DNA from: Deltaproteobacteria bacterium
Lineage (GTDB): Bacteria; Myxococcota_A; Polyangia; Polyangiales; JADJMO01
DNA length: 64,000 nt
NCBI GenBank assembly: GCA_022843175.1
Contig: JALHOE010000005.1
Span: 41,885 to 105,884, forward strand
Direction: 5' to 3'
The position numbers and the translations under genes are program-made. Positions 3,045-62,819 of the stretch are shown here, in pieces. Positions within the stretch are counted from its first letter, which is position 1. Every line of letters starts with the position of its first letter. The notes below the pieces were generated by a model that was not told the origin of the DNA, did not search any database, and saw only the letters and a program-made list of their open reading frames with translations.

Positions 3045-3839
3045 TCAGCCCATCATGTCGAGGAACGGACCGGCGCCGAGGAGCGAGGTGCCGCCGTCGA
3101 TGAGGAGCGTGGCGCCGGTGACGTAGGCGCCGGCCGGCGAGACGAGGAAGAGGACCGCCTCGCAGACCTCGTCGATCGTGCCGTAGCGGCCGAGCGGCAC
3201 GCGCTTCTTGAAGTTGGCCTGCACGTCGCCGGGGGCGAGCCGCGACATGCCCTCGGTGTCCTCGATGGGGCCGGGGGCGACGGCGTTGACCCGAATGCCG
3301 GAGCGCGCCCATTCGAGCGCGAGGTCGCGCGTCAGCTTCTCGATGCCGGCCTTCGCCGCGCCGGCGTGGCACTGCAGCGGCGTGGGGACCTCGGCCTGGG
3401 TGGCGGTGATGCTGACAATGCTGCCACCGTGCTTCGACAGCTGCTCGAACGCGGCGCGACAGGTGTTGAAGGTGCCGCAGAGGTCGATGTCGATCACGGT
3501 GCGGAACCCGTTGGCGGACAGGGTCGCCGCGGGGGCGAGGAAGTTGCCGGCCGCGCTGTTGATGACGATGTCGAGGCCGCCGAACGCCTCGACCGTGGAC
3601 TTGAGCGCCTGCTCGACGTCCGGGTACTTGCGGACGTCGGCCGGAAAGGCGCGCGCCTCGCCGCCCGCGGCCTGGATTTCCTTCACCACGGCCTCGAGCT
3701 TCTCGGCCGTACGCCCGAGGAGGGCGACCTTCGCCCCCTGCTTGGCGAGCCGCAGCGCGATGCCGCGGCCGATACCGCTGCCGCCCCCGGTAACGAAGGC
3801 GACCTTACCCCGAAGCAGGTTGTCGACGAAGACGCTCAT
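3045..3839 (-). CDS. SDR-family oxidoreductase (2,4-dienoyl-CoA reductase-like)
   Basis: MSVFVDNLLRGKVAFVTGGGSGIGRGIA (TGxxxGxG), INSAAGNF and YVTGATLLIDGG tail typical of SDRs. ATG at 3839. Confidence 0.85.
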   Translation of the reverse strand: MSVFVDNLLRGKVAFVTGGGSGIGRGIALRLAKQGAKVALLGRTAEKLEAVVKEIQAAGGEARAFPADVRKYPDVEQALKSTVEAFGGLDIVINSAAGNFLAPAATLSANGFRTVIDIDLCGTFNTCRAAFEQLSKHGGSIVSITATQAEVPTPLQCHAGAAKAGIEKLTRDLALEWARSGIRVNAVAPGPIEDTEGMSRLAPGDVQANFKKRVPLGRYGTIDEVCEAVLFLVSPAGAYVTGATLLIDGGTSLLGAGPFLDMMG

Positions 3840-7481: not shown

Positions 7482-8015
7482 TCAGGCGGCGAGCGGCTGC
7501 TCTGCCGGCTCGGCCAGCGACACCGCCAGCTGCCGTCGCGCGCGGTGCAGCCGCGACATCACGGTTCCGATCGGCACGCCGAGCGCGTCGGCGGCGTCGC
7601 GGTAGCTGCGTTCGGCGACGTCGACCATCAGCACCACGTCGCGGAAGGAGCTCGGCAGCTCCTCGAGCGCGCGCTTCACCTTGGGCGACAGATCGCGGAG
7701 CTCGGCGACGGCGTCGTCCTGCGCGGTCCACGAGCAGGGATCGATCGCGAGCGACCGCACCGCGTCGCGCTCGCGGCGGCGACGGCGCCAACCCGTCACG
7801 AACAGGGAGAAGACGATCGTCTGCGCCCAGGACTTGAGGTTGGTCCCCGGCTGGAACTGCTCGCGGAAGCGGAGGGCGCGCTCGATGGCGTCCTGCACCA
7901 GATCCTCGGCGCGCGCTTCGTCTCGCGTGAGACGCAGAGCACGCGCGCGCAGGTCCGGACGCAGCGCGCAGAGGTCACGAGCGAACGAATCGGTCGAGAT
8001 GGGCATGGTCAACAT
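7482..8015 (-). CDS. ECF-type RNA polymerase sigma factor
   Basis: Region 2 (AEDLVQDAIERALRF...LKSWAQTIVFSLFVTGWRRRRR) and region 4 (LEELPSSFRDVVLMVDVAERSYRDAADALGVPIGTVMSRLHRARRQL). Confidence 0.9.
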   Translation of the reverse strand: MLTMPISTDSFARDLCALRPDLRARALRLTRDEARAEDLVQDAIERALRFREQFQPGTNLKSWAQTIVFSLFVTGWRRRRRERDAVRSLAIDPCSWTAQDDAVAELRDLSPKVKRALEELPSSFRDVVLMVDVAERSYRDAADALGVPIGTVMSRLHRARRQLAVSLAEPAEQPLAA

Positions 8016-8980: not shown

Positions 8981-10345
8981 ATGAGGCCGCTCGCCGTCGT
9001 CGTCGTCGCCCTGCTCGCGATCGTGCTGATGGCCGGCCGCGGCCGCGCGCAGCCCGCGGTCATCGCCCCGATGCCGTCCGAGTCGGTCAAGGTCAACGAG
9101 GAGCCTCCCGCGCCGACCGGCAAGCCGAGCAAGACGATGCCGGGATGGAACGCGCTGTGGGGCGAGCTCCCCAAGAGCACCGCCGATCTCCGCATTGCCC
9201 TCGCCGAGATCGAGCGCGCCGAAGCGGCCACGCGCATCGCGTGGGGCGCGGTGCTGCCCACCATCAACGGCACCGGCACGCTCACCTACTCGTCGCGGCC
9301 GATCGTCTCCGGCGGCATCCTCGTCGGCGGCGCCACGCTCAACGCGCAGCTCTCGGCGACGCAGTCGCTCATCAACTTCCGCGCCTGGCACCAGATCGGC
9401 ACCACCCACGTCCTCGAAGAGGTCGCCAACCTCGAGGTGCACGAGGTCCGTCGGCGGCTCGGGCTGCAGCTCGCGCGCGCCGCGGCGTCGATCACCGCCG
9501 CGTCGCGCCTCGCCGAGGGCAACCGCGCCTCGCTGCTCCTCGCGATCGATCGCCTGGTGCTCACCCGCAAGCGGCTCCTCGCGGGCGTGGGCGACGCGCG
9601 CGATCTCGTGCGCGCGCAGCAGGACGTAGCCACCGCGCGCGCGGTCATCGCGCCGAACGACGAGTCGCTGCTCCAGGCCGAAGAGGCGCTCGCCACCATC
9701 CTCGGCACCACCGGCTCGGTCGGCCTCGCGATCGATCTCGAGGCGCTCGAGCGCGAGGTCAAGACGTTCTGCGGCGAGGCTCCCGCCACCACCGACAAGG
9801 AGCGGCTCGACGTGACCATCGCCAAGAAGCGCATCGAGGTCGCGGAGCGCAACGTCAACGACATCACGCTCAAGTTCGTGCCCACGCTCACGGCCAGTGC
9901 GTCGGCGGGCATGGTCGGTCGCGCGTTCGAGGGCCCGTTCGCGCCGCAGTGGTCGGTGAGCGCGATCCTGCAAATCCCTCTCTTCGACGGCGGCGTGCGC
10001 TACGGCGAGAAGCGCGACCGTCTCGCGTTGGTCGAGCAGGCCAGAGCGCGCGCGCTGCAGGCCGAGGTCGCGTCGCTCGTCGAGCGAGCCCAGGCTCGCC
10101 GCGCGCTCTCCGTCGCCGAGGCCGCCCAGACGTCCGCCAAGGAGGCCCGCGACCTCGCCGCCGAGGCCGATCGCCTCGCGAAGGCCGCGTATGCGGCGGG
10201 CATCGGCACCAACTTCGATCTGATCGACGCCGGCCGTCGCCTGCGCGACGCCGAGACGCAGCTCGTGCTCCGCGATCTCGACCTCGCCCGCGCGCGACTC
10301 GCGCTGCCGTTCGTGGAGGGTACGTGCGCAGGGGTCGCGAAATAG
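8981..10345 (+). CDS. TolC-family outer membrane protein
   Basis: Signal peptide from ATG 8981, then TolC-like heptad helices (LRIALAEIERAEAATRIAWGAVLPTINGTGTLTYSS ... AEADRLAKAAYAAGIGTNFDLIDAGRRLRDAETQLVLRDLDLARARLAL). Confidence 0.82.
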   Translation: MRPLAVVVVALLAIVLMAGRGRAQPAVIAPMPSESVKVNEEPPAPTGKPSKTMPGWNALWGELPKSTADLRIALAEIERAEAATRIAWGAVLPTINGTGTLTYSSRPIVSGGILVGGATLNAQLSATQSLINFRAWHQIGTTHVLEEVANLEVHEVRRRLGLQLARAAASITAASRLAEGNRASLLLAIDRLVLTRKRLLAGVGDARDLVRAQQDVATARAVIAPNDESLLQAEEALATILGTTGSVGLAIDLEALEREVKTFCGEAPATTDKERLDVTIAKKRIEVAERNVNDITLKFVPTLTASASAGMVGRAFEGPFAPQWSVSAILQIPLFDGGVRYGEKRDRLALVEQARARALQAEVASLVERAQARRALSVAEAAQTSAKEARDLAAEADRLAKAAYAAGIGTNFDLIDAGRRLRDAETQLVLRDLDLARARLALPFVEGTCAGVAK

Positions 10346-53712: not shown

Positions 53713-53823
53713 TCACAGAGACGTCGCGGCTCAACCCGGCCGTCCGATGTGTACTTCGGAGAAGGGATCCCTTGTCCACTCGCCCGTTGGAATCCCCGGC
53801 GGACGCTGCCATTCCCTACCCCC
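53713..53823 (+). repeat. ~111-bp interspersed repeat, copy A
   Basis: tcacagagacgtcgcggctcaacccggccgtccgatgtgtacttcggagaagggatccctt...; about 6 mismatches to copy B. Confidence 0.92.
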
Positions 53824-53831
53824 ATGCCACG

Positions 53832-54573
53832 ATGACCGACACCAGCTGCGAGCGACGCGGCCGCTGCTGGACATCCGTGCGCGACGCGCTGCTCGCGACC
53901 CGGGGCGCTCCCTGCGCGTTCAACAACTGCACGCTCGGTCCCGCGCAGACCGCCGTAGCCGGATCCACCTGCGACGCCGACGCCGGCGTGGACGCTACGG
54001 TCGTCGACAGCACGGTCGTCGACAGCACGGTCGTCGATACGACCGTGGCGGAGACGACCGTACAAGACACCGCCGTCGACACCTCGGTGGTCGATTCCGC
54101 TACGGACTCGGCCGCCGCGGCGACCGTCGTGACGTGCTCGCAGCTCACCGTCACTGCCGGCGTCGTGAGCAACGCCGCGACGGCGTGCGGCCCGACCGGC
54201 GCGCTCGCCACCGTCGACGATCGTCGCGGAGTGGGGCGCGTCGATCTCCGGCGTACAGACCGGCGCCTACGCGAGGTATCGCTCGCCAGCGCCCGCCGCC
54301 AGCGTGAAGAGCCTGCGCGTGGTCGTCAGCTATCTCGGCGACGACGGCACCGAGCCGTTGTGGAGTTGGTCGGTGAGGAACCTCTCGGGCGGCTGGGACG
54401 TCATCGGAGACAGCTCCGTCGCCGCGAACTGGTCGTGGCGCACGCTCACGTTCACCGTCCCGAGCCCCGCGGCTCACGTGAACGCGGCGGGTGACATCGA
54501 CGTTCGCTTCACGAGCGCGACGAGCACCAACAGCGCCGAGCTCGATCGGATGGTGGTCGAAGTGACGCAGTGA
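53832..54573 (+). pseudogene. Frameshifted secreted protein remnant (VDST-rich linker plus beta-rich C-domain)
   Basis: Frame 1: CDADAGVDATVVDSTVVDSTVVDTTVAETTVQDTAVD...ALATVDD; coding then continues in another frame as EWGASISGVQTGAYARYRSPAPAASVKSLRVVVSYLGDDGTEPLWSW... to the stop at 54573. Shift near 54200-54230. Confidence 0.7.
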
Positions 54574-54708
54574 GCGCAGCGCGTGCGCCGCCCGCGGCCT
54601 CGTTGTCGTCCGGCGAGAGCAGCCGATCGTCCGGGAAACCGCCGTCGATCCCGCGTTGAATCGGCCGCGCCGTCGTCCGTCCAACCGCGGCTTTCGGAGG
54701 TCCTCGCC

Positions 54709-55854
54709 GTGCGTTCCCTGTTCATCGCTCCACTGTTCGTCTGCCTGGTCCTTGGGTGCTCGGCGCCCGCTGCCAACACCACGGCCGAAAAGCAGCCCGA
54801 GCCCGAGCCGGGGTGCTCGGAGGATCTCGCGACCGATCCCGAGAACTGCGGCGCGTGCGGCAACTCGTGCGGCGGCGGGGCGTGCAGCGACGGCAAGTGC
54901 GGCGCCGCGGTGCTGGCGTCGATTCCGAGCACGTCGATCCCGACCGGCCTCGTCGTGTCGGGCGAGACGATGGTGTGGGGCGAGACCGACAAGAAGTACA
55001 ACGGCAAGATCCACGTCTGCACCGCGAGCGACTGCGAGGGCACCAAGCGGATGTTGTCCGACCGCGTGAGCTATCCATCGCGGCTCGCCGTCGTCGGCTC
55101 GTCTCTCTATTACACGAGCCCGATGTTCAAGCTCGCCGACGGCAGCCCCTCGGCCAACGCGCCCGCGCGCATGGCGCTCGATGGCGACGGCGCGCCGCAG
55201 TTCCTCATGGCGGCGCTCGTCATGCGCGATCGCGCGGCGACCGGGTTCGCGGCCTCGTCGCGCGGCATCGTGGTCGCGCTCGCGGATCGCGCGAACACCA
55301 AGACCGGCGGGCTGACCGGCGTCTGCCCGATGGCCGGGTGCCCGGCGAGCGGCACCGAGCTCAACCTCCTCGAGAAAGACCTCCCGACGCCCGGCGAGCT
55401 CGTCGCCACGGACACGCAAGTCTTCGCGTCGATCCTCGGCAACGGCACGATCGTCTCGTACGACCGCAAGAGCGCGGCGAAGAAGGTGCTCTTCGAAGCC
55501 GAGATCGCGAGCGTGCTCGCGCAGGACGAAACCGATCTCGCATGGGGCACCGCGGTGCCGGAGAGCACCGGCACGCCCGGCGTGACGATCAAGAACTACG
55601 TCGCGGTGGGACCGAAGACCGGCGGCACGCGCGTGAAGGTCGCCGAGACGGGCGAGGTCACGAGCGTCGCCATGGCCGGCGGCTACGTGTACTTCGCCGA
55701 CCTGCGCGGCAAGCTCGCTCGCGTCTTGAAGACGGGCGGCGAGGTCGAGACCCTCGCCGAGGGCGACACCTGCTTCGACCTGCAGGTGCACGAGGGCTTC
55801 CTCTACTTCTCGAGCCCGTCGTCGCACTCGATTCGCAAGCTGCGCGTCCGCTAA
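54709..55854 (+). CDS. Lipoprotein with beta-propeller-like repeats
   Basis: GTG 54709; MRSLFIAPLFVCLVLGCSAP lipobox, CSEDLATDPENCGACGNSCGGGACSDGKCG motif, then repeating GGTRVKVAETGEVTSVAMAGGYVYFAD-type blades. Confidence 0.75.
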   Translation: MRSLFIAPLFVCLVLGCSAPAANTTAEKQPEPEPGCSEDLATDPENCGACGNSCGGGACSDGKCGAAVLASIPSTSIPTGLVVSGETMVWGETDKKYNGKIHVCTASDCEGTKRMLSDRVSYPSRLAVVGSSLYYTSPMFKLADGSPSANAPARMALDGDGAPQFLMAALVMRDRAATGFAASSRGIVVALADRANTKTGGLTGVCPMAGCPASGTELNLLEKDLPTPGELVATDTQVFASILGNGTIVSYDRKSAAKKVLFEAEIASVLAQDETDLAWGTAVPESTGTPGVTIKNYVAVGPKTGGTRVKVAETGEVTSVAMAGGYVYFADLRGKLARVLKTGGEVETLAEGDTCFDLQVHEGFLYFSSPSSHSIRKLRVR

Positions 55855-55899
55855 CCGAACGTGTCCCCGACGGACGTCGGTGCCCCTCCGCGTGGACCC

Positions 55900-56260
55900 A
55901 CGATGCCGACGCTACGGAGAGCACCGTCACCACGGATAGCTCCGCCGTCGACACAGGGGCGCCCGACGCAACTCCCCTCGACACGGGCTCACCCGCCGCT
56001 TCGCTCTCCGCTGCGTCCGCTGCGTCCGCTGCGTCCGATGGCTCCGAGGCCGGCGCCCCCGGGTTGTGCGATCCCGCGCGCCTGCCGATGAACCGCGCCG
56101 ACCCGCTGTCCTGCTGCTTGAACGGCAAGGACGAGTGGTTCGTCGGCGGCAACACGCCGTCGCGCCTCGTCCACCGCCATCACGGCTTGGCGTGCACGAC
56201 CGACGGGGTGACTGGAGGCTGCGACGGTCTTGCGAGAGCGGGTTCACGTGCACGCTCTGA
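55900..56260 (+). pseudogene. Fragment of a second Asp/Thr-linker lipoprotein
   Basis: DADATESTVTTDSSAVDTGAPDATPLDTGSPAASLSAASAASAASDGSEAGAPGLCDPARLPMNRADPLSCCLNGKDEWFVGGN...; no credible start or signal peptide; three short tgcgtccgc repeats inside. Confidence 0.45.
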
Positions 56261-56293
56261 GCGGGCAGGCGGGGATCGAGCCGCCGCGAGAGC

Positions 56294-57676
56294 TCACGGA
56301 TGGAGTCGAACGAGGAAGCCCTCGCGCTGCGAGGTCATCGCGCCCGTTCCGGAATCCACCGTGCCGTCGAGCCAACCGCCGATCAGGATGCGCCCGTTGT
56401 TGGGGGTGACCGCCGCGGAGACCGGCGGGACGTATCCGCCGCTCTCCGTCGTGCTGAACGAGCGCGCCCACACCGTGCCGCCAGTGCTAGCGCCGAAGTG
56501 CGCCGCGAAGGTGCCCGCGCCCGGCCCGGCGACGAAGTCGTAGGAGCCGATGTTCAGCGTGCCGCTGTCCTCGAAGCGACCGGCCACACTGACGTAGTTC
56601 CATGGGTCGAACCCGGCGCCGACGAGGCGCATCGTGGCGCTGCCCCACAGCTTCTTGACCCAGCGAATGCCGCCGCCGCTGTCGAAGCGCGCGAGGAAGA
56701 GGTCGCGTGAGCTGCTGCCGTTGGTCAGCGTCTTGTCGCCGAAGGCGACCGATCCGAGGAAGCGACCGCCGACGACGACGCGACTGTCGGGCGCGGCGCC
56801 GATGACCATCTCGCTCACACGGGAGCCGAAGTCTCGCGCACGCACGTATTGGCCCGCCTGGTCGAGCGTGAGGAGGAGGCCGGTGTTCTCGTGTGGATCG
56901 GTCCCGCCGGTGGCGGTCATCCACCCGCCGCCGAAATCAAAGGAGCCCGAATAGGTCCCGGCCAGGTGGATGCGATTGTTCTCGTCCGTCGCGAGCCCGT
57001 AGAGGACGGCGCGGCCATTGCTGCTATCGAACGCGTTCTGCCATCGCAGATCGCCGTTGCGCTCGTACGAGACCACGAAGGTCGCCCACACGCCCGTGAG
57101 GTCGTAGTAGGTGCCGAAGTTCGTCGGGCCGGTGTAGTGCCCGGCGATGATGGGGCGACCCCACGCGTCGACGCCGCCGGCCTCGAGGGCGACGTCCTGG
57201 CCGGAGATCGTCCTCTGCCACGCGCACGCGCCGTCGGTGGTGAAGTGCACGAAGAACGTCCCGCTGACGGGACCACAGCCCAGGTCGACGGGCGGAAGCT
57301 CCGGCGACGCCCACCCGGTCATGAAGATCTGACCCTCGCTGCCGGTGAACCCAGCCGCGGTCCCCGAGCCCCAGTAGAACAGCGGCAGCGTCTTCTCCCA
57401 GAGCAGCTTGCCGTACGGATCGTACTTGTGGATGGTCGGCCGCTGCTTGGCCACGTCCCATCCGAACACGTAGGCATCGCCGGCGCTGTCGGTCGTGACC
57501 CTCTCCACCATCGCGGGAAACTGTCGCGCCCAGATGGTCTTGCCGGAGTCCTCATTGCGCGCGAGCGCCTCGTCGCCCGAGCCAACGGGCTCGACGTCGG
57601 TCTCGTCCGGCTGCGCCGGCGCGACCGAACAACCAACGACAGCGCCAACCAACCACGCGATGTGCACGACGCGCAT
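56294..57676 (-). CDS. Secreted repeat protein (SBBP/delta-60-like beta-propeller repeats)
   Basis: MRVVHIAWLVGAVVGCSVAPAQPDE lipobox; repeats such as NNRIHLAGTYSGSFDFGGGWMTATGGTD and SRVVVGGRFLGSVAFGDKTLTNGSSSRDLFLARFDSGGGIRWVKKL. Confidence 0.78.
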   Translation of the reverse strand: MRVVHIAWLVGAVVGCSVAPAQPDETDVEPVGSGDEALARNEDSGKTIWARQFPAMVERVTTDSAGDAYVFGWDVAKQRPTIHKYDPYGKLLWEKTLPLFYWGSGTAAGFTGSEGQIFMTGWASPELPPVDLGCGPVSGTFFVHFTTDGACAWQRTISGQDVALEAGGVDAWGRPIIAGHYTGPTNFGTYYDLTGVWATFVVSYERNGDLRWQNAFDSSNGRAVLYGLATDENNRIHLAGTYSGSFDFGGGWMTATGGTDPHENTGLLLTLDQAGQYVRARDFGSRVSEMVIGAAPDSRVVVGGRFLGSVAFGDKTLTNGSSSRDLFLARFDSGGGIRWVKKLWGSATMRLVGAGFDPWNYVSVAGRFEDSGTLNIGSYDFVAGPGAGTFAAHFGASTGGTVWARSFSTTESGGYVPPVSAAVTPNNGRILIGGWLDGTVDSGTGAMTSQREGFLVRLHP

Positions 57677-57785
57677 GAGAACCTCCGCGCGTCGCAAGCA
57701 CAGCAACTTGTGTGCTCGCGCAGACAAACCGAAAAAAGCGCGGATCCTCCACCGCCGCTATGGACGAGCTGTAACCTGTAGATCC

Positions 57786-57905
57786 TCAGTGCCGCGTGCC
57801 GACGGCGAGGTTCGCCGTGAACGGGATCACCACCGGGCCGTCGCCGAGCTTCCGCGCCACGCGCTCGTAGACGGCGGCCTCGACCCGCGGCCAGTCGTCG
57901 CCAAA
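57786..57905 (-). pseudogene. C-terminal remnant of an unidentified leftward gene
   Basis: Frame reads SFGDDWPRVEAAVYERVARKLGDGPVVIPFTANLAVGTRH-stop, then loses coding character at about 57905 where an opposite-strand remnant begins. Confidence 0.4.
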
Positions 57906-57906
57906 G

Positions 57907-58170
57907 CTCCTTCGTCGCACCTTCCTCGACGACGTCCTCGCGTGCCCGCGCTGCAATGGCCGCGCGCGAGTCATCGCAGCGGTCCACCAGTCCGACGAAG
58001 CGCGTCGCTTCCTCGCTTCCATCGACGAACAATCCCTCTCGGAACGGCTCCCCTACGCGCGCGATCCCGACGAAGCACCGCCCGACTCAACACAGCCCCC
58101 GCCACCCTCCGAGCCCGAAGCCCCGCCGCCGTCGGAGCCCGCCATCGAGCTCCCACCGCCCGACGACTGA
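57907..58170 (+). mobile_element. C-terminal fragment of an IS91-like transposase
   Basis: Frame without start codon: LLRRTFLDDVLACPRCNGRARVIAAVHQSDEARRFLASIDEQSLSERLPYARDPDEAPPDSTQPPPPSEPEAPPPSEPAIELPPPDD-stop; CPRCxGxxRVIAA matches the IS91/IS801-type transposase C-terminus as I remember it. Confidence 0.65.
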
Positions 58171-58248
58171 CGCCGCTCCCCGCGCCCCCCTCCGCGCCCC
58201 ACCACCGTCGACCAAGGACGCCGGCCGGAGGTGTACCCTTGCGTTCGT

Positions 58249-58359
58249 TCACGGAGACGTCGCGGCTCAACCCGGCCGACCGATGTGTACTTCGGAGAAG
58301 GGATCCTTTTTCAACTCGCCCGTTGGAATCCCCGGCGGACGCTTCCATTCCCTACCCCC
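58249..58359 (+). repeat. ~111-bp interspersed repeat, copy B
   Basis: tcacggagacgtcgcggctcaacccggccgaccgatgtgtacttcggagaagggatccttt...cattccctaccccc; near-identical to 53713-53823. Confidence 0.92.
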
Positions 58360-58531
58360 TCCGAGGCCGGAACCGACGAGATCGTCGTCTACGGCAGGAG
58401 CGCGTTCGTGCTTCCGGTCGCGCTCAACGTTGCGGACGCCCTCGGCGCCGAGTTCCACCTCTTCGGCGACGACGTCAATCCCGTGGCCTGAAGGCCGCGT
58501 CCAAGCGAAGCATGAACGCTGCCTCGATCGC

Positions 58532-58646
58532 GGGGGGTGTAGGAAGTCGAAGCGTCTGCGTGTGACTCCGGTCGGCGAGTTGACATAGGATCCCCTCTCT
58601 GATCTGCACCCCGGATGGCCGGGGGTGGCGCGCAGTCTCTGTGAGC
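58532..58646 (-). repeat. ~115-bp interspersed repeat, diverged inverted copy C
   Basis: ggaagtcgaagcgtctgcgtgtgactccggtcggcgagttgacataggatcccctctctgatctgcaccccggatggccgggggtggcgcgcagtctctgtgagc aligns along its length with the reverse complement of copies A/B. Confidence 0.75.
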
Positions 58647-59771: not shown

Positions 59772-60908
59772 CTACGTGCGTTCGAAAACGAGGATTAGCT
59801 CCGTCTTGGTTGCCGCAACGTGTCGACGTGAGCGACGAACATCTGGAATTCGGTCCTTGATCACGTCAATCAGGCGCAGACCCCTTCGTGGAGTGGCTTG
59901 CTCGATGATGAACTCCGCCGGATGTGACGTCATTCGCTTTCGTGTGACGGTTTCACCGACAACTAGTACGCAACGGCCGCCGCGCTTCAACTGGCGAACA
60001 TGGCGGTCGAAAAACGTTCGCATCATATCGCGGAACACCTCGCGCTTGTCAGTCGGCTCTTGGTCGTAATCACTCTGCTCACGATTCAGGAACCACAACC
60101 GCAGACGATTGTCGCGCGTGTAGTCCAGTGCGTTCATATACGGCGGACTCGTGACGATCGCGTCCACCTGACCTGGAGGCTCCATGTCTTGAACAGCAGC
60201 GTGAACAATCGAATGCTCCGTACGCGCAAGTAGACGGAGCGCAGCCTCGCTTGAGCAAGCACGCACGACCTTTGCTAGCAGGCGCGAACGAATATCACGG
60301 TATTCGTACATTTCAGGGTAATCGTCCGCCGGGAACTTGCGCGCGCGCAGATACGGAACCAAGTGACTACTTGGATACGACAGGAACCCTGGCCGCTGGT
60401 GGTGCAGCACGCCGAGCAGGCACGACATCAAAAACACGTCGCCTACGGCGACGCACTCATCGGCGAATGAGATGGCTTCCTTCAGCGTACGAGGATGGAA
60501 GAACTTCCGCACCCACGCGGGTACCGTGCGCAGGTCGACGGGGTGACGTCCGGCCGCAGCATCAATTCGCTTCTCAAGTTCGAGTTTTGCTTCCGCCAAC
60601 GTCGCGGGCGGCGAAAGCTTCGCTCGTGTGAGCGTGACGGCATAGCGGCTTGCGTCGCTCGCGATGGCTTTACGGCCGAGAAGGGCGCTTTCGAGTGGCA
60701 CCGTGCCGGACCCACAAAATGGATCCAGAACGAAATCACCGGGCTCGCTATGCGATTCGATCAAAGACGCCGCGATCGAACTCTTTAGCTTTCCAATGTA
60801 AGGAGACAGTTGGTGAAGCTTGCACTCCTCGTGCGTCGACGGTCGCGCCCACGAGCGCGGCGCGTTTCTCCGTCGGAGCACGGCGGTCGTACGCTGGAGG
60901 TGGCCCAT
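59772..60908 (-). CDS. DNA methyltransferase (FGG ... TSPPY order)
   Basis: HQLSPYIGKLKSSIA, FVLDPFCGSGTVPLESALLGRKAIASD, VDAIVTSPPYMNALDYTRDNRLRLWFL, GGRCVLVVGE. Confidence 0.87.
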   Translation of the reverse strand: MGHLQRTTAVLRRRNAPRSWARPSTHEECKLHQLSPYIGKLKSSIAASLIESHSEPGDFVLDPFCGSGTVPLESALLGRKAIASDASRYAVTLTRAKLSPPATLAEAKLELEKRIDAAAGRHPVDLRTVPAWVRKFFHPRTLKEAISFADECVAVGDVFLMSCLLGVLHHQRPGFLSYPSSHLVPYLRARKFPADDYPEMYEYRDIRSRLLAKVVRACSSEAALRLLARTEHSIVHAAVQDMEPPGQVDAIVTSPPYMNALDYTRDNRLRLWFLNREQSDYDQEPTDKREVFRDMMRTFFDRHVRQLKRGGRCVLVVGETVTRKRMTSHPAEFIIEQATPRRGLRLIDVIKDRIPDVRRSRRHVAATKTELILVFERT

Positions 60909-60909
60909 A

Positions 60910-61779
60910 CTACCAGTTGCCCGTTTTCGCGAGTTCCTCGCGAGCTGCCGTGACTAGGCCAACGAGTTCTGTCACAGAGTTTGCAAGAATCTCATGATGA
61001 TTCGCGCTGTCGTAAAGCAGTGCGCGTATCCCCATACTGTCCTCCATTACGTCAAGCACGGAGGAGTCAAGCGCACCGTCGGCCATAACCATGTAGTGTG
61101 GCCGTGCCCGCCCGAACCTATAGACGTGATTCTCCAGCAACAGCTGGATGTCGGGGTCGCGCATAGACGCGCCCAGAAATACAAACGTGTTCGTGTGCAG
61201 CAGGGCGTCGACGAGTTCGTAAAAGCGCGCATGCTCGCTACGAGCACGCGCGTAGTCGGTACGAGTAAAAATTGCCTGATCGGGCGCGTCTATGGTGCCG
61301 TGAATCTTGAGCACACAGCGTTCCCTCCGACGGAGAACGTCGTTCACAGAAGGATCGTTGTAACTTTTGACAATAGTGCTGTTGTCTGTCAGATGGTTCG
61401 CGCGGATTTCGTAAATTCGATCGAAGTTCGTGGTAACAACAAATCGCGCGTCGAGCGCGACTATGTCGTCGTGGACGCTTGCAGCGCGAAACCCTTTGCT
61501 GTTATATTCTCTCAACAGAAGCGTCTTGAACTTGTCCGGCTTCAGGTGCTTACGAAGGAGTTCGCAGGCCGTCAGGAGGTCGCTTCTCGCGATGCACGCC
61601 CGAACCTGACTGGCGGCGGCGCCGCCCAGCGCCGAGGCTCCCTCCTCGAGGAATTCGTCCCAATTCTTGGGGCGCTCGCCAGACGCGCTTACGGCATTCT
61701 TGCTGATTCCAGCGCCGAGAAACAGCACGGCGCGGCGCGCGGCGAGGTCGTGAATCAGCTCGTCATCCCACTTGATCAC
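60910..61779 (-). CDS. SIR2-like domain protein
   Basis: [78 protein letters not shown]2_2-type signature. Confidence 0.88.
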
Positions 61780-62819
61780 GCCGCACCTGCACTCGCGATA
61801 TTGAGGTTACTCAAAAATGCGTTTGCGAGCTTCTCGATGAAGCTGCGATAATCGCGTTGCTGTGTATATTGACCACCCTGCAGTCCGTCGCGTGACTCGA
61901 GCTTGTCGATTGCTGTGTGTCGAGTCTGAGCCAGAGGAACTAGACTGTACATGTGCGGAACATCTCCCAGATGTAGAGCATCGGCCTGGAGGCCTGGGGC
62001 AGTCACCGCTCCGAGATGCTGGGTGATGTTGCTGGGAATACTCGAGAGGATCGCTTCGTACGCCGATGTGGCGCGACGCTCGTCCTTTATTGTTTTGGTA
62101 ATATACTGTTGAACAGTATACCCGATGAAACGCGACATTGTCTTCACGTCGCGACGCACCTGGTACTGATCTAGTTCGGACCCGTGGCGGGTAGCACAGC
62201 GAGCAATAGCCGCGCTGTAGTCGTCCATCCAGGCGTGCAGCCATTCAGCGATGTTCTCAATGCCGATGAGGCTAAAAATGTCAGCGCCCATCGGGGCCAC
62301 GAAGAAGTCGACACCGACAAGAACGGAGCGGTTGAGAGCGCCGAGACTGGGGCCGACATCAAATATGACGATGTCGTACTTGGGCTGAATGATATTCAGT
62401 AGTTGCGTGTTCCAGTTTGTGACTCGGGCACCGCCGATTTCTGCGCCAATGAAGTCGCGCCATGCCCCGCTGAGCTGATCTTCAAGCATCGCAATTCGCG
62501 GGTGCCCAGGAATGACATGCACGCCGAAGCGGTTTGTCGCGGGCAGAGCGGGTTCGATCGCACTGTCGAGCGTTGCATCACCCACGCGAAAAGGCTTCAG
62601 CACGTCATTGAGGGTTCGCACCGCAGGGGACTGGCCGCGATAAATGCTTTCGGTGAGCTCCGGCGGCAGAATCAGTTGCGTCGCGTTGCACTGCGGGTCG
62701 GCGTCGACCAGCAGGACCGAGAGTCCTTTGTGCTGAGCGAGGTACGCCGCCACGTTGCAAGCCAACGTCGATTTTCCGACGCCGCCCTTGTTGTTGAAGA
62801 AGCAGATGCTGGAGCCCAT
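61776..62819 (-). CDS. ParA/MinD-like ATPase
   Basis: [24 protein letters not shown] (deviant Walker A), [40 protein letters not shown] 62819; stop overlaps the SIR2 start. Confidence 0.92.

Follow-up and report, generated by a model that had tools for sequence, protein, structure and literature searches.

A 111-bp interspersed repeat in a Polyangiales genome as the putative right end of an IS91/ISCR-family element and its probable solo miniature derivatives

We analyzed a 64,000-nucleotide stretch of DNA (the window), in which a first-pass annotation had noticed three copies of a repeat of about 111 bp, and followed this repeat through the host genome (9.75 Mb, 470 contigs) and its relatives. 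The comparisons identify the 111-bp unit as oriIS, the right end of a rolling-circle (HUH) element of the IS91/ISCR family. Most copies, including copies A and C of the window, are probably minimal non-autonomous derivatives of this element that arose through an internal stop.

Copy A (53713..53823, plus strand) and copy B (58249..58359, plus strand) aligned without gaps and differed at 6 of 111 positions (94.6% identity, E 2e-46 within the window), in agreement with the two direct copies and about six differences first described. Copy C, previously placed at 58532-58646, proved to be a genuine inverted copy at 58535..58644 on the minus strand, with 72% identity to A and B across the full length (E 4e-11). 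It scored E 5e-25 in the genome-wide model search and E 4e-26 against the family profile, which was built from sequences that include C itself. Copy A begins with TCACAGAGAC after a flanking GAGC and ends with ..CCTACCCCC before ATGCC; copy C begins with TCACAGAGAC after TTGC and has the right edge CTTCCTACACCC. The palindrome aagggatccctt was found again in A at 53762-53773, and GGATCC was retained in A, B and C. This central GGATCC is not family-wide: other copies read ggggtcc, ggggacc, gggattc or gggttc, and the GGATCC palindrome is absent from the copies of relatives.

Copy A, a solo oriIS module without transposase and with 95% identity to B, has a left flank unrelated to that of any IS-attached or other solo copy; it is a young solo copy, located between the start of a lipoprotein-like gene and a decayed reading frame. 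Copy B, which is joined to a transposase remnant and has a left extension in common with other IS-attached copies, is what is left of the right end of a truncated IS, and copy C is an old solo copy. The bracketing of pseudogene pieces by A, B and C is consistent with a permissive island. Immediately past the right end of copy B, a reading-frame end of 43 codons with 91% GC at third positions was observed (58360-58491, plus strand); it had no Pfam match and probably belongs to a gene that the IS interrupted. Three adjoining genes at 59772-62819 (minus strand) encode a DNA methylase (N6_N4_Mtase), a SIR2_2-domain protein (ThsA/Dsr-like according to PADLOC) and a ParA/AAA_31 ATPase; lying beside the repeats, they may constitute a defence cassette.

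We then examined the link between the repeat and a transposase. The window holds an IS91/ISCR right-end fragment at 57902..58361 (plus strand), comprising a transposase 3' end, a spacer and the oriIS module, which matched an IS on contig C69 (locus L037) with 92.6% identity over 462 columns. Within this fragment, 57904..58170 (plus strand) is a transposase 3' remnant of 88 codons plus TGA, and 85 of its 88 residues (97%) are those of the C-terminus of the L037 transposase. Because copy B adjoins a remnant that matches the C69 element in both DNA and protein, the repeat was assigned to an IS91/ISCR right end. The earlier suggestion that it might be the end of a mobile element thus holds for copy B, which ends a decayed element of this family. 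The C69 transposase is a complete open reading frame of 623 codons, with an HVHFH motif in its translation and domain-profile matches to Y2_Tnp (E 2e-25) and Zn_Tnp_IS91 (E 5e-21). Its best NCBIfam match, a likeness to ISCR elements, was the ISCR_clade_Ia model (E 4e-92, but with a score far under the model's own cut-off); a search by sequence among solved structures returned no HUH relative.

When the copies were sorted together with their flanks, two classes were obtained: five copies (B, C36, C69, C18d and C34) have a common left sequence, which is the 3' end of the transposase gene in four of them, and the rest have none. In the sister species G001, of the same genus, the module on contig C79 starts about 80 nt downstream of the matching part of a transposase with 64% identity; in G002, of the same family, it likewise lies downstream of homologous transposase sequence. 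An oriIS-type module (end TTCCTA..CCC) is thus located 3' of a transposase in the host and in both of these species, and these findings indicate that the module is an IS right end.

The genome search revealed that the repeat extends well beyond the window, with 13 near-complete and about 11 partial or diverged copies in the host genome (about 24 in total, E<=2e-6). Among 184 scanned genomes of the order, it was confined to the same taxonomic family; outside the host there were ten diverged matches in G001 and one each in G002 and G004, and phage and plasmid collections gave no match. In G004, a solo module lies within transposase-like sequence and is directly followed by a group II intron (L098:1189-1592, minus strand; Rfam RF02005, E 4e-38). 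Copies in the host are clustered, with 12 pairs less than 10 kb apart compared with 0.58 expected under random placement, and all five copies on contig C18 have one orientation. Such clusters could be arrays produced by repeated one-ended transposition with adjacent DNA, as in ISCR-like gene capture, the 4.4-kb A-B interval having moved with B. We consider this unlikely: the flanks of A and B are unrelated, no second A-B segment was present among the fetched loci, no evidence was found that the 4.4 kb moved as a unit, and insertion into permissive, pseudogene-rich islands accounts for the clustering equally well. On contigs C62 (21358-38997) and C19 (8649-32314), matches to only the left half and only the right half of the module lie 17-24 kb apart in like orientation and order; this may be coincidence, or the matches may mark where large elements end.

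To characterize the copies without transposase, we tabulated 24 solo copies from four species. Each lacks a transposase gene and consists of one unbroken stretch of the right end with a well-defined left edge. All 24 have a GAGAC-type start, the preceding base is A in 23, and a YCA motif lies no more than 6 nt ahead of the start in 22, so that the common solo start reads YCA-S-(G)AGAGAC and lies about 111-123 nt to the left of the terminus. Ahead of the YCA motif and past CCCCC, per-site information across these copies drops almost to background. Their 200-base flanks have nothing in common except two 16-21-nt matches at chance level, whereas the IS-attached copies have long left flanks in common at 73-99% identity; right flanks had no sequence in common among the copies. 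At the junction, every IS-attached copy of the host has GTTCAC, and the youngest solo copies have GCTCAC. The closest pair was found in G001, where an IS end on contig C79 (L141) and a solo copy on contig C66 (L148) agree at 124 of 125 positions, the sole difference being the junction base. Two copies retain extra sequence on the left, C34, a form of ~155 bp, with about 43 nt and the solo copy g1_C171b with about 35 nt, the latter in common with one IS-attached copy; because these extend further left, other internal stops would also occur.

The solo copies might instead be only the decayed right ends of full elements, left by 5' deletions that removed the transposase, with no mobile miniature at all. 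Truncated ISs do exist here, as copy B lacks most of its transposase and C36 and C18d are internally deleted, and many copies are old. Random deletion would however give variable left edges, yet the YCA motif recurs beside the GAGAC start in nearly all solo copies although their flanks are unrelated, and the young G001 pair is identical up to the common start. This explanation is accordingly quite improbable. Open frames across solo copies were examined for empty target sites, but no usable interrupted gene and no empty site was found. The two ends of the module do not match each other and no common flanking repeat was seen; target-site duplication is not expected for the IS91/ISCR family. In G001, the right end of two solo copies (L148:4084-4268, plus strand, and 3205-3353, minus strand) is directly followed by a second, shorter version of that same end, about 60 and 25 nt long, which resembles the insertion of an even smaller one-ended product next to ori.

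The comparison of IS-attached and solo copies also shows a sharp boundary between IS and repeat, between ..GCGTTCG and TTCAC, which would suit an alternative in which the repeat is an older independent sequence used by IS91-type elements as a landing site, copy B being an IS inserted just to its left. Betaproteobacterial elements with distant transposases, several of them multicopy, stop sharply at GCGGTTGGATTTCCTATCCCC or ..TTTCCTATCCGC and continue into unrelated DNA; their end type is TTTCCTATCCSC, that of the present module TTCCTACCCCC. The consensus terminus in the host is GCGGACGCTTCGATTTCCTACCCCC, that of copy C is GACTTCCTACACCC / GACGCTTCGACTTCCTACACCC, and both can be set beside the terminus of ISCR1 oriIS, ACTTCCTATACCC / GTGGTTTATACTTCCTATACCC (PMC13023784), a 22-bp sequence that the right end resembles. 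Because distant relatives and ISCR1 share this end type, and with the module lying 3' of a transposase in several species, a mere landing site is very improbable. A structured RNA or a REP/BIME palindrome with a regulatory role, to which the weak central palindrome of copy A and the intergenic position of copies might point, is scarcely credible: folding z-scores for the two strands ranged from -0.63 to +1.66, a set of 13 copies showed no compensatory changes and a set of 18 a single trivial one, and no Rfam family was found at the repeats.

The REP-like label of the first-pass annotation is not supported: single strands fold no better than shuffled sequences, and the alignment folds gave no covariation and no conserved hairpin or palindromic stem-loop. 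Conserved coding sequence was rejected on account of 1-nt and 6-nt indels between copies, which rule out a conserved frame. The MITE-like label fits in that A and C are probable solo miniature derivatives, but not in the sense of a TIR-bearing MITE, as TCACAGAGAC at one end and CTACCCCC at the other do not form inverted repeats and no direct repeats occur at the flanks. The family is new in sequence, while its kind, an IS91-family right end with one-ended derivatives, is known.

At the left end of full elements, a half-module profile search revealed no convincing second module copy, and a weak left-end similarity upstream of a transposase fragment (L147:14280, E 0.7) was dropped. A GC-rich palindrome, CCGCCGGCGGCCGCCGG, was found upstream of the G001 transposase and a similar one in C69, as candidates for the left-end stem-loop typical of the IS91/ISCR family. 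The internally deleted elements C36 and C18d have an exact 20-nt terminus in common, GCGTACATACGAGCCTGCGC (L036, about 10116-10135, and L034, about 7852-7871, both minus strand), and the genome contained no other occurrence of it at up to 3 mismatches; we regard it as a candidate for the true left end. The internal edge motif of the solo copies was not convincingly recovered at the left ends of full elements, which carry a putative GC-rich stem-loop; the motif is therefore called ter-like only because it serves as a boundary.

The accepted IS91 model has transposition initiate at the right end, ori, and terminate at ter or a ter-like sequence, and a stop elsewhere gives one-ended products (PMC5714925, PMC3189936). 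In an IS801 trap assay, 26% of the insertions were right-end miniatures, with lengths of 229, 360 and 679 nt, that started at a tetranucleotide like that of the left end (PMC3189936). The present family fits an IS801-type process in which a single internal stop, at 111-123 nt, predominates. The transposase would nick the right end after ..TTCCTACCCCC and the strand would be displaced toward the transposase gene. In a fraction of events, displacement would stop short of the true left end, at the internal ter-like motif YCA-S-(G)AGAGAC. The resulting single strand of 111-123 nt may then be inserted elsewhere by the transposase, beside a YCA-type tetranucleotide and without target duplication, and YCA-S would be part of the rule for target or stop. 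As such miniatures keep the ori and a usable stop, any full copy could mobilize them again in trans, for instance the one with the 623-codon frame on C69. Many copies are decayed, and some may have been moved by duplication and not by independent insertion. More tentatively, and with somewhat less confidence than doubt, we suggest that the internal stop may be a built-in second terminus: every full element would then hold a complete 111-123-bp mini-transposon, and the lineage would have long maintained self-contained miniatures with their own YCA-S target rule, a bacterial counterpart of non-autonomous Helitrons.

Among known systems, the miniatures of IS801 in Pseudomonas syringae are alike in their IS91-family transposase, kept right end, tetranucleotide-marked internal start and origin as one-ended transposition products (PMC3189936). 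They differ in that the three sizes given above are laboratory products and genomes contain few, with two natural 229-nt copies (PMC3189936), whereas the present family has tens of natural copies in four species, a length of 111-123 nt and one main internal stop; the edge motifs are GAAC/CAAG in IS801 and YCA-type here. Non-autonomous Helitrons of eukaryotes are comparable in the way they work, as short non-coding derivatives of rolling-circle HUH elements moved in trans, and no membership is claimed; host domain and transposase differ, and no 3' hairpin was found in the present family. Bacterial MITEs such as MITEPsy1 (100 nt) are similar in size, copy number and lack of coding capacity, but have TIRs and target duplications, neither of which was seen here. 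A description of solo right ends as a repeat family of IS91/ISCR elements was not found in open-access full texts, and miniature offshoots that borrow a transposase in trans look rarely documented for this group in bacteria.

The features that constitute a ter, and with them the way in which IS91/ISCR transposition ends, are poorly defined; whether adjacent genes travel along depends on them. A natural family with one reused internal site offers a tractable 111-bp substrate together with a candidate termination signal. These findings suggest that bacterial rolling-circle transposons may leave MITE-like families that are invisible to TIR-based MITE searches.
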